From: Telopea speciosissima
Taxonomy: Eukaryota; Streptophyta; Magnoliopsida; Proteales; Proteaceae
Assembly (NCBI RefSeq): GCF_018873765.1
Contig: NC_057923.1
Location: 24,089,913-24,153,912, forward strand
DNA: 64,000 bases
Direction of reading: 5' to 3'
The position numbers were made by a program, and so were the translations under genes. Under the pieces are notes generated by a model, which was given only the letters and a program-made list of their open reading frames with translations, was not told the DNA's origin and searched no databases. Positions within the stretch are counted from its first letter, which is position 1. The number at the start of each line of letters is the position of its first letter. Positions 10,624-14,833 of this stretch are shown piece by piece.

Positions 10624-10638
10624 ATTAGAGAGATAGAG
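10624..10638 (+). repeat. target-site duplication, left copy
   Basis: ATTAGAGAGATAGAG, identical to 14819-14833 after the A-rich tail. Its last G coincides with U6 position 1. Confidence 0.9.
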
Positions 10639-10740
10639 TCTCTTCGAAGACATCCGATAAAATTGGAACAATACAGAGAAGATTAGCATGGCCCCTGCGT
10701 AAGGATGACACGCACAAATCGAGAAATGGTCCAAATTTTT
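10638..10740 (+). pseudogene. U6: U6 snRNA retro-copy fused to a LINE
   Basis: This is a full-length plant U6 spliceosomal RNA sequence from the 5' stem-loop (TCTCTTCGAAGACATCC) through ACAGAGAAGATTAGCATGG and AAATCGAGAAATGGTCC to the terminal T run. Compared with the plant consensus I remember it has about five changes, all C-to-T or G-to-A. The ACAGAGA box and the AGC triad are intact. No upstream sequence element or TATA box lies at the usual -60/-30 positions, and the sequence begins exactly at a LINE-type target duplication. It is therefore a reverse-transcribed copy, not a working U6 gene. Confidence 0.93.
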
Positions 10741-10741
10741 T

Positions 10742-13700
10742 GTCTTGTGAAACGGAGAGATCCCGAGGTAAATTCTATCTGATTGCGGTTTATGCCCCTT
10801 GTGATTTGGGAGAAAGGAACTTGTTTTTTGATACTTTACATCTCCCTTCGGACTTACTAGGCTCTCCTTGGATGGTTAGTGGTGATTTTAATGCTATTTT
10901 GATGCCCCAAGAGAAGCTGGGGGGGCAACCACCCTGCCCTGCGTCGATGGAAGGCTTTAGTCGTTTTGTTGATCGAGCAACACTTGTGGACATGGGGTAT
11001 GAGGGTAACTGTTTCAATTGGTCGAACGGGCAAGGGGGAGGACAGATGATTAAAGCTAGATTGGACAGGGTTTTCTATAATCTTGCTTGGTTGGCTGCCT
11101 TTCAGCATTCTATGGTGAGGCACCTGAATAAAGCCTGTTCGGATCATGCTCCGATTTTTATGAGTTTCTCGCAGACTTTGGAGCTTTTTCACGCCCCTTT
11201 TAGATTCCAACAGATGTGGACACACCACCCCGCTTTTAAGGATTTTGTTGCAGCATGCTGGTCCTCCCCTATTATTGGCACCCCTTTATATGTTCTGTTC
11301 TTGAAATTGAAACATTTGCGAGGACAGCTTAAGATTTGGAACAGGGAGTGCTTCGGAAACATCCATAGGAACGTTAGAGATGCTGAAGACAGGGTAACCA
11401 GGATGGAATTTGAATATGAGGGTAGCCCTACAGAGCAAGCACTCTGTGACCTTAGGGGCGCAAGGTGTCTGCTAAATCAGGTGTTGTTGCAGGAGGAGAT
11501 CTTTTGGAAGGAGAAGTCCAGGGTTAAGTGGCTGAAAGAGGGAGAAAGGAATACAAAATTTTTTCATGCTGTTGTTAATGTGAAGCGGAAAGGTGGAGGC
11601 ATTTGCAAAATCAAGAATGCTCAGGGGGAGTGGATCACGGACAGCGAAGGGGTGAGCGGGGAGGCGGTCAGGTATTTCTCCGAGATTTTTTTTGCAGGTT
11701 CTACAACGGTGGATGAGGATCTCTCAATTCCTACAGTTATCTCTGAGGGGGATAATGAAATGCTTTCTGCAACGCCAATCCTTGAGGAGGTCAAGGAGGC
11801 GGTGTTTTCTCTTTCTAAAGACAGTGCACCTGGCCCAGATGGATTCACAGGTCATTTTTTCACTTCTTGGTGGGACATAGTTGGCATGGATGTTTGGGCT
11901 GCAGTAAAGGAATTTTTTGAAGGCGGTTCAGTTCCAAGGAGCTTTACTTCTTCTCACTTAGTGTTAATCCCAAAAAATCTATCACCTGAGTTGATGTCAG
12001 ATTACAGACCAATTAGCCTATGCAATTTCTCTTATAAAATAGTTGCTAAAGTGATTGCATCAAGATTGGCGGCCATTCTTCCAAGAATTATCTCTGAAGA
12101 ACAAGGAGGTTTTGTAAGGGGCAGATGCATCCATGATAACATTGCGCTGGTGCAAGAGGTGGCGCAGGACCTGACGAGAAGCACGAGAGGAGGAAATGTC
12201 ATGCTGAAGTTGGATATGGCAGAGGCATATGATCGCCTGGAATGGAGTTTCCTTGTGGATGTGTTCCAAAAATTTGGTTTCTGCTCGGCTTGGATTCAGA
12301 TTATTGAGAAAACTCTACAGAACTGCTGGTTCTCAGTTATTCTTGACAAAGGGCCATCAGGTTTTTTCAAGTCCACCAGGGGACTTAGACAGGGGGACCC
12401 CTTGTCACCTCTGTTATTTATTCTCGCCGAGGAGGTGCTCAGTAGGAGTTTATCTAATTTATTTTCTTCTGGCAGAGTAAGTTTTTTCCATCTTCCCAGC
12501 AGGTGTCCAGGTATTTCTCACAGTTTGTTTGCTGACGTTACTATCATTTTTTTTAGGGGTGATAAGGCATCATTACAAAGCATCATGGGGTGTATTGGGT
12601 GGTACGAAGCATGCTTTGGACAACTTTTTAATACAAGCAAGAGCTATTTTGTGGTAAGCCACAAAGCACATAATCGCCTCTGTAGAAGAGTGAGAGATAC
12701 TATAGGTTTTGAAAGGAAAAAACTGTCGTTAATTTACTTGGGGGCACCGGTATGCATAGGGAGGCTGAAGGTCTCTTTCTTTGAGGATTTCTTGGTGAAG
12801 GTAAGAAGGAAAATAGCAGGCTGGAAAGGAAAGCTTTTGTCCACAGGGGGAAGGGTGACCTTGTTGAGGCATGTGCTGTCGTCAATGCCTATTCATATTA
12901 TAGCCTGTTTAGACATCCCACGTTCGATCATGAAGAGGTTCCAAACGATGTGTGCTAATTTCCTATGGGGGGAGTCGGATTATGGCAAAAAATGGCACTG
13001 GGTCAGTTGGGATCTTGTGTGTAGACCCCAAAAGGAGGGAGGATTGGGAGTTAGGTCTTTGAAGGAGCTAAATTTTGCTATGCGGATCAAGAGTCTGTGG
13101 CGGGCTTTGACTGAGCCATCACTTTGGAACCAATTCTTCACTGCAAAATATCTTAAGGGAGTTCATATTGCACTGGTGCAACAACCCAAAGGAGGGTCCA
13201 AGACTTGGAAGAGAAATTTGGCTCTCAAGGATTTCCTACTGGAACACTCGGTCTGGTTGTTGGGGCAAGGAGAGGTGCTATTCTGGCTGGACGACTGGAG
13301 TGGTGAGGGGTCCTTGATCGACTTTGCTGATGGGGCTCTGCATGTAGATCTAGATTTGAGAGTGAAGGACGCTAGGCAGGCGAATGGGTCTTGGGACCAA
13401 GATGTGATAAACAGAATTGATAATGGAGGGGTGTGTGAGAGGATATCTAATTCCAATATAATGCTCTCTTCGAGAGAGGATCGGTTTGCATGGACACCGG
13501 CAAGTGATGGGATTTTCTCTCTCAAGTCTGCGTGGAACACTATTCGTAGGGTGCACCCTGAAGTGCCTTTTGCTAGGTGGATCTGGAACGGATCGCTCCC
13601 AACCAAAGTCGGTTTCTTCTCATGGCAGGTACTAATGGGGAAAATTGCAACAGATGAGGCAGTGAAAGGGGCAGGAATTCCTTTGGCATCTAGGTGCAAT

Positions 13701-14621
13701 TGTTGCCTCCAATCGCAGCAGGAAACCTCCACCCACGTGCTGATTTGTGGGGTAATGGCGACGAAGGTTTGGACACATTTTGGAAGGCTCTTGGATATCC
13801 AGATCATCTACACCCAGGACCTGAAGACTAGACTGTTGTATTGGCAGTCCAAGGGTTCTTTGAAGAATTTGTACATGTTCATTGTTGGAATTGTTCCTTC
13901 CTTTATAATTTGGGAGTTGTGGAAAGAAAGGAATAATAGAAGACATGAAAGAGGTGTGAGATCCACCAATATGATAATTTGGAAAATCACTAAATGGATT
14001 CAAGAGATCCCTTTACCTTCCTTCTCTTTGAAGGTTAGCAGTATGAGGGAGGTGCTTGCATTGCAGGTCCTCAACTTAAAACACCCTCTGATCAGGTATA
14101 AGATCCCTCGGCCCATCTATTGGTGCCCTCCGCTTTATGGCTTGAAAATTAATGTTGATGGTGCAAGCAAAGGGAACCCAGGGCCAAGTGGTGGAGGGGG
14201 TGTGATTCGAGATTCATCCGGGAACTTGGTGATGGCTTTTGCGAATTACTATGGGCAGTGTACCAATACCGAAGCGGAGATGAGGGCGATCCTAGATGGT
14301 CTTCGTTTATGTGTGAGCAGGGGTTTTAATGGGTGCCAAGTAAACTCGGACTCCAAAATTATGGTGCAATTTATTGCATTGAGGGAATGTAAAGTGTGGA
14401 GTTGTTGGTATTGGATCTCGCAGGTGATACGATTGGTAGAGCAGCTGAACGCTAATGTGAGCTTCTCGTACAGAGAGGGGAATTGAGCAGCAGATTTCTT
14501 AGTCAATTGGGCTTGTGAAACCCAGCGCAACAGTTGTTTTCTGTCCAATGCAGAGACACCGCCAAGGCTTTCTTGTATTCTCAGGGAAGACAAGGCTGGC
14601 CTTCCTGTGTTTCGGCTTTAG
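10742..14621 (+). pseudogene. LINE ORF2 (endonuclease-RT-zf-RVT-RNase H), 5'-truncated
   Basis: One frame stays open for about 1,248 codons from the U6 junction to a TGA at 14484; a natural-looking stop lies at 14619. Domains by residue: endonuclease remainder 10-145 (GDFNAIL, SDHAPI; roughly the first 90 residues are missing), RT about 343-650 ([24 protein letters not shown]), zf-RVT about 925-1020 (CNCC...H...C), RNase H from 1134 (NVDGAS, NTEAE, NSDSK), with its last Asp beyond the TGA. The RT box reads FADV at 12528-12539 instead of FADD, so the second catalytic Asp is gone. The TGA lies where CGA would give REGNRAADF. The long frame indicates a fairly young insertion. No native start exists in this copy. 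Confidence 0.9.
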
Positions 14622-14818
14622 TCTTTTATATTTTGGTTGTACAAGGGGAGGGTCTCAGCGTGGTGTGAGCAGAGAGTTATCTTCTGTCTTGGTTTCGGGG
14701 TAAGGCGGGCTATGTCCCCCCCGTGTAACTCCTTTTTTGATTTGGTTAAATTATTAATCAAATTCTAGGGGCCACCCCGGGTCCCAGATAATATTCGGGG
14801 TAAAAAAAAAATAAAAAA
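14622..14818 (+). other. LINE 3' UTR and A-rich tail
   Basis: Non-coding 3' sequence with GGGGCCACCCCGGGTCCC near 14770, ending in TAAAAAAAAAATAAAAAAA. The tail marks the priming end of target-primed reverse transcription. Confidence 0.8.
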
Positions 14819-14833
14819 ATTAGAGAGATAGAG
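14819..14833 (+). repeat. target-site duplication, right copy
   Basis: ATTAGAGAGATAGAG, an exact copy of 10624-10638. Confidence 0.9.

Follow-up and report, generated by a model that had tools for sequence, protein, structure and literature searches.

How did a copy of the U6 small nuclear RNA (snRNA) come to stand directly in front of the coding sequence of a retrotransposon? The question is raised by an insertion in the genome of Telopea speciosissima (NCBI RefSeq assembly GCF_018873765.1, contig NC_057923.1, positions 24,089,913 to 24,153,912; this whole stretch of 64,000 nt is called the window below), in which the U6 copy is followed by a 5'-truncated long interspersed nuclear element (LINE) of the plant L1 type. 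It is confirmed that U6 and LINE arrived together, because they share one target duplication, the site is empty in paralogous copies of the host repeat, and the closest LINE relatives run straight through the junction point. That the locus represents a U6-LINE chimera made in a single event seems close to certain.

One insertion carrying U6 and LINE

The U6 copy matches the Rfam family RF00026 over model positions 1-105 of 105 (window 10638-10740, 107 bits, E 6.6e-27), is 97.1% identical to the U6 gene sequence of the Telopea genome over 104 nt (U6 1-104), and ends in six T (10736-10741), directly 3' of which, and in the same orientation, the LINE coding sequence begins. The initial annotation, made from the letters alone, had described a full-length U6 joined straight to a LINE ORF2 at the U6 3' T run, and the complete Rfam match, the open frame with its LINE domains and the position of the six T bear this out.

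The LINE is 95.6% identical to its closest relative in the genome (L039), 94.7% to the second (L040) and 84.1% to the third (L041). In both L039 and L040 the LINE sequence continues upstream across the junction point without any U6, and the ORF2 start codon lies 268 nt (i.e. 89 codons) upstream of it, so that the earlier estimate of roughly 90 missing residues was right and LINE copies without U6, for which a search had been proposed, do exist; L041 could be aligned to either side of the junction point. The window reads TTTTTT-GT-CTTGTG where L039 and L040 read TGG-CTTGTG, and the bases unmatched in the relatives would represent either one changed base or at most two untemplated bases.

Both parts lie within an identical 15-nt direct repeat, ATTAGAGAGATAGAG, at 10624-10638 and 14819-14833. 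The exact 15-bp target duplication claimed at the outset is therefore real, and it can be extended to 16 nt (AATTAGAGAGATAGAG), the last G doubling as U6 base 1 and the first A merging with the A-rich tail, which indeed ends the unit as had been noted. By eye, the insertion target site is TTG/AATT, a poor match to the L1 endonuclease motif TT/AAAA, which may not be the motif of a plant L1.

Because the host repeat is purine-rich, a chance control was run, in which the 5' flank of each of 39 loci was set against 700 nt of 3' flank from every other locus (1482 comparisons; six of the 45 rows were left out, namely L047b, L081b, L075, L077, L084 and L086, the last four re-entering in longer form as L092, L093, L090 and L091, respectively). 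Only three of the 1482 comparisons gave 11 nt or more, one of them 12 nt and none longer, while the 38 other 5' flanks matched the 4.3 kb of the window locus itself over at most 10 nt, versus 16 nt for the true pair. A chance repeat in purine-rich DNA is thereby ruled out as the source of the duplication.

The insertion sits in a high-copy repeat, of which 40 copies out of 2315 first-look candidates were scored (the window included), the other 39 being 86-91% identical. Ten of these 39 listed paralogues (i.e. not the orthologous allele) were fetched across the site, and in all ten the site is uninterrupted and continues into the sequence found to the right of the insertion. Three of them (L067, L069 and L072) are identical over the 16 nt; the remaining ones differ slightly, some with small gaps further right. 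None of the ten carries U6 at the insertion site, and thus no related repeat with U6 but lacking the LINE was found among them. The empty site that the initial annotation had suggested looking for was accordingly found in paralogues, although its label for the host repeat, a solo long terminal repeat (LTR), could not be established, the repeat being only LTR-like. No other examined U6 locus lies inside the host repeat; the sole BLAST match, of U6 locus L096, is at window 16294-16398, near or past the right end of the nested repeat.

Three other histories can be imagined, each of them very improbable. If a U6 retrocopy had come first and a truncated LINE had later inserted at its 3' end, the adjacency of the two would be explained, and nothing further was found in favour of this course. 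One 16-nt duplication encloses both parts, with the best candidate measuring only 5 nt if just the LINE is considered and 7 nt if just U6 is; U6 is absent from the site in all ten fetched paralogues; and the same order and sense orientation of U6 and LINE recur at four other supported loci. Two separate insertions are rejected, since U6 and LINE share their duplication, the fetched paralogues have the site empty, and neither part has a duplication of its own; this agrees with the earlier claim that both parts came in one event. An error in the assembly is equally hard to uphold, as a misjoin would not create identical duplications together with an exact empty site, and similar structures occur elsewhere in the genome. 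Finally, a LINE lineage might have captured U6 at its 5' end and now carry it as a resident module, which would suit the full-length U6 and the long LINE frame. The chance of this is just as slight, given that the nearest LINE copies lack U6 and extend upstream into ORF2, and that the other U6-LINE loci belong to different LINE families with different truncation points. The architecture, the single event, the truncation of the LINE exactly at the junction and the recurrence within the genome are all counted as established.

Regarding the LINE itself, the features expected of a plant L1-type element were found (RT, i.e. reverse transcriptase, zf-RVT and RNase H-like domains, and an A tail), and relatives in other plants share these domains. 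The N-terminal endonuclease region has been truncated away in the window copy; L039 retains the ORF2 N-terminus, and PF03372 is listed for many relatives. More than 1,200 codons of ORF2 had been annotated, which holds for the length of the open frame, except that an in-frame stop (14484-14486) ends it within the RNase H-like domain. The usual RT catalytic box is FADD or YADD. Because of this stop and the FADV box, the window copy is very probably dead, judging from its sequence. It carries private substitutions at 53 of 3238 comparable sites (1.6%; C-to-T or G-to-A in 28 cases), compared to 64 of 3249 in L039 and 88 of 3273 in L040, and is thus the least changed of the three. By eye, L040 is truncated further upstream, where it adjoins hAT transposase-like DNA, with a short tandem duplication at the border.

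The U6-LINE unit is located in a repeat nested in the RT region of a Ty3-type element, which is read on the minus strand and bounded by a 2.2-kb direct repeat pair (window 5781-7975 and 23439-25604, 88%). Two other direct repeat pairs in the window resemble LTR pairs (26230-27214 with 31988-32972, and 35200-36634 with 49993-51202; 85-88%).

Table 1. Features of the insertion (window coordinates) and related U6 loci elsewhere in the genome (contig:position)
Feature	Position	Strand	Evidence or remarks
Left part of high-copy host repeat, LTR-like, nested in Ty3-type element (minus strand)	10153..10622		copies 86-91%; pol pieces both sides
5' target-site duplication AATTAGAGAGATAGAG, 16 nt	10623..10638		flank comparison; empty sites in paralogues
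Full-length U6 snRNA copy, ends in six T	10638..10741	+	RF00026 and gene-sequence identity
Open frame, 1248 codons	10740..14486	+	opens within junction; in-frame stop inside RVT_3
Junction: six T, then GT, then CTTGTG	10741..10743	+	alignment with L039, L040
5'-truncated plant L1-type LINE: ORF2 minus first 89 codons, plus 3' untranslated region	10742..14801 (end approximate)	+	L039, L040, L041 alignments
Reverse transcriptase domain RVT_1, catalytic box FADV	11967..12725	+	Pfam PF00078, E 8.8e-29
zf-RVT domain	13515..13772	+	Pfam PF13966, E 6.2e-18
RNase H-like domain RVT_3, stop-interrupted	14151..14483	+	Pfam PF13456, E 5e-17
A-rich tail	~14802..14819	+	read from sequence
3' target-site duplication, same as 5' copy	14818..14833		flank comparison
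Right part of host repeat, extent compared with empty sites	14834..14920
L056, U6-LINE	C169:33282		zf-RVT E 1.4e-12; 14-nt duplication
L057, U6-LINE	C1:53328358		tblastn E 6.7e-51
L061, U6-LINE	C696:16071		zf-RVT E 1.2e-13; join at U6 base 72
L084, U6-LINE	C7:764053		tblastn E 6.9e-35 vs L056 LINE
L052, U6 with 82-nt SINE-like partner	C3:55731740		U6 100% identical to genes; 16-nt duplication

Recurrence among the U6 loci of the genome

In the genome search based on the window the best 40 of 57 candidates were scored, so that the number of U6 loci is a lower bound. The 42 matches listed comprise four with LINE only and 38 with U6, the latter representing 37 loci (L081 accounts for two). A search with a U6 3'-end pattern (up to 3 mismatches) hit 23 sites and adds three loci, giving a total of at least 40, while the reversed pattern hit no site in the genome. 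Eleven of these loci were classed as gene-like, three by a match to the upstream-element pattern and eight because a similar TCCCA box could be recognised by eye, and 29 were not. In the eight (L045, L048-L051, L053, L059 and L060) the upstream box is, by eye, of the TCCCA(T)A type, where L046 and L047 have the RTCCCACATC element, and these eight possibly form a second promoter class of U6 genes.

At five of the 29 non-gene loci (the window, L056, L057, L061 and L084) U6 stands in sense directly before LINE coding sequence, and the search for further U6-LINE junctions proposed in the initial annotation has thus yielded four more supported loci. Whether such joins fall at the U6 3' end had also been asked; four of the five do (the window included), the exception being L061. 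Of the 23 sites hit by the 3'-end pattern, nine are gene-like, and the other 14 include four supported U6-LINE loci (all but L061) as well as L086. The latter is a probable sixth U6-LINE join, from an RNase H-like reading by eye; for its partner, neither Pfam (E up to 1) nor tblastn found a match, and the DNA matches, at 14 other places, are of only 70-86%.

Joins to short interspersed nuclear elements (SINEs) seem to occur as well. At L052 a 43-nt stretch, including about three T of U6, matches two repeats at 91%, which by eye read as tRNA-like SINEs, and L075 and L077 are U6-SINE joins recognised by eye only. Other non-gene loci end in tails, i.e. L055 and L062 (short tails, with duplications of 12 and 11 nt, respectively), L080 (an A-rich tail and an 11-nt repeat that was seen by eye and then confirmed, where the automatic finder gave 5) and L096 (a short tail and poly(A)). 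L095 ends in TTTATTCACCCA before A-rich DNA, similar to the 3' ends of the L056 and L084 LINEs, and this locus is possibly an extreme LINE truncation. Fifteen of the 29 have no assigned class.

Duplications were found at two of the five supported U6-LINE loci (the window and L056), and were sought and not found at L057, L061, L084/L090, L086/L091, L075/L092 and L077/L093. LINE queries gave no match in the U6 5' flanks (38 rows, only 22 of them with 500 nt or more of 5' flank, L094-L096 not being included). The duplication of L056 overlaps U6 bases 9-15 (GGAGACA), so that the truncated U6 and its target share a 7-nt microhomology at their border. At L081 (C3:61972500-61973300) the U6 copy is, by eye, interrupted by a tRNA-like repeat similar to the Au SINE, and Ty3-like sequence flanks it.

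The source RNA and the joining step

The T run at the end of U6 is 4-7 long in 12 tailed or chimeric copies versus 7-14 in 10 gene-like loci (p 8e-5), and upon adding five more non-gene copies (one with 10 T) the difference persists with p 1.5e-4, although these p values serve only as a guide, as the loci are related sequences. The comparison excludes the gene-like L059, then L079 and L090 (an interrupted run of 2), and rows without a readable run. The shorter T runs at the joins point to 3'-processed U6 RNA as the source of the retrocopied U6.

Given the A-rich tail and the target duplications, we infer that the insertion reaction was target-primed reverse transcription. A plant L1-type LINE would have inserted into the LTR-like repeat in this manner, its RT starting at the poly(A) tail of the LINE RNA, copying into ORF2 and stopping 89 codons short of the ORF2 start. 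The RT would then have taken a processed U6 snRNA as its next template, entering at the 3' oligo-U end and reading through to the U6 5' end, after which the composite cDNA would have been sealed in between one pair of target duplications. Such template jumping within a single event is, on balance, the probable origin of the join, and it is favoured over ligation because of the internal join at L061 and the unmatched junction bases in the window, neither of which is decisive. With a join at U6 base 72, a U6 3' end carrying a cyclic phosphate cannot have been the substrate at L061.

The alternative is that RNA ligation came first, i.e. that a plant ligase linked the processed 3' end of U6 to a cleaved LINE RNA, at the 5' end of the latter, and the product was then retrotransposed. 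For the human U6/L1 fusion, one published model besides template switching is that the two RNAs are ligated via RtcB (PMC13174262; PMC13247085). In the Telopea assembly, RtcB (PF01139) gave no match, in a search that was positive in nine of 14 control genomes, all of them prokaryotes, and RTCB has been reported as lost in land plants (PMC13247085, available text). That an exon-broken gene can be detected in this assembly follows from the USB1 family (the U6 3'-end exonuclease), which was found in three pieces on C1. Without an RtcB match, the join needs either template jumping by RT, which is favoured, or some other ligase, for example plant tRNA ligase. The obvious candidate would be a tRNA ligase of the AtRNL type. 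The Arabidopsis tRNA ligase joins cyclic-phosphate ends (PMC6277466), and because plants have such a cyclic-phosphate-specific enzyme, ligation remains a rival, although a rather unlikely one. The presence of USB1 and the fact that four of the five supported loci are joined at the U6 3' end speak for it; the join inside U6 at L061 speaks against it, as does the lack of any report on a cyclic-phosphate state of plant U6 in the literature searched (Usb1 literature included, within the portions accessible).

Several points weigh against template jumping in turn. One later substitution may account for the unmatched junction bases, and a broken U6 RNA could be the origin of L061, where no duplication was found and the contig ends 857 nt downstream. 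Furthermore, end-to-end RNA ligation would just as well make the joins stop consistently at the U6 3' end, and the mechanism is read from the sequence. The initial annotation had proposed that a plant L1-type RT switched templates. This is still the favoured course, with the reservation that a pre-joined U6-LINE RNA would leave the same scar.

Meaning and relation to known systems

The U6-LINE chimera as a kind is known in vertebrates, and of interest here is a plant host without detected RtcB. No report of a plant U6-LINE chimera was found in the open-licence PMC literature, as judged from titles and the start of abstracts (subscription papers being outside the search). We lean towards the view that flowering plants, lacking RtcB, repeatedly make U6-LINE and U6-SINE chimeras, either by RT jumping or through plant tRNA ligase. 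If true, RtcB is no general requirement for the U6-first architecture, and plants provide a natural RtcB-free test of its origin. The two models for the fusion, template switching and RNA ligation, are not easily told apart in animals, which have RtcB. That the architecture recurs in a genome without detected RtcB suggests that not every host needs this ligase, and plants with reduced tRNA ligase would be a tractable system to decide on the mechanism. The finding also extends LINE-driven formation of RNA chimeras, from which new SINEs and retrogenes arise, to a flowering plant.

Chimeric insertions of U6 and LINE-1 in mammals were reportedly treated by Moldovan in 2019. They are described in PMC4476161 and PMC13174262 (in the text available of each), and share with the Telopea insertion a full-length U6 in sense, a 5'-truncated LINE downstream, an A tail, a single pair of duplications and a join at the U6 3' end. 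The Telopea case differs in its plant host, in the zf-RVT and RNase H-like domains of its LINE, and in having no RtcB match. Outside vertebrates, the WEIRD-MGL (MINE) chimeras of Magnaporthe grisea likewise place a cellular RNA 5' of a LINE, with direct repeats of 10-20 bp, although the 5' part there is WEIRD RNA, for which the available text states no homology to U6 (PMC2104539). In platypus and lizard, LINEs of the L2, RTE and L1 types, and the SINEs that go with them, have been described in chimeras with U6 (PMC4476161, which mentions neither plants nor Arabidopsis). As in Telopea, a single genome there has U6 joined to more than one LINE family and to SINEs, in some chimeras as a 5'-truncated copy, whereas the duplications are 1-9 bp in 72.5% of 40 cases in platypus, compared to 11-16 nt in Telopea where they could be resolved.

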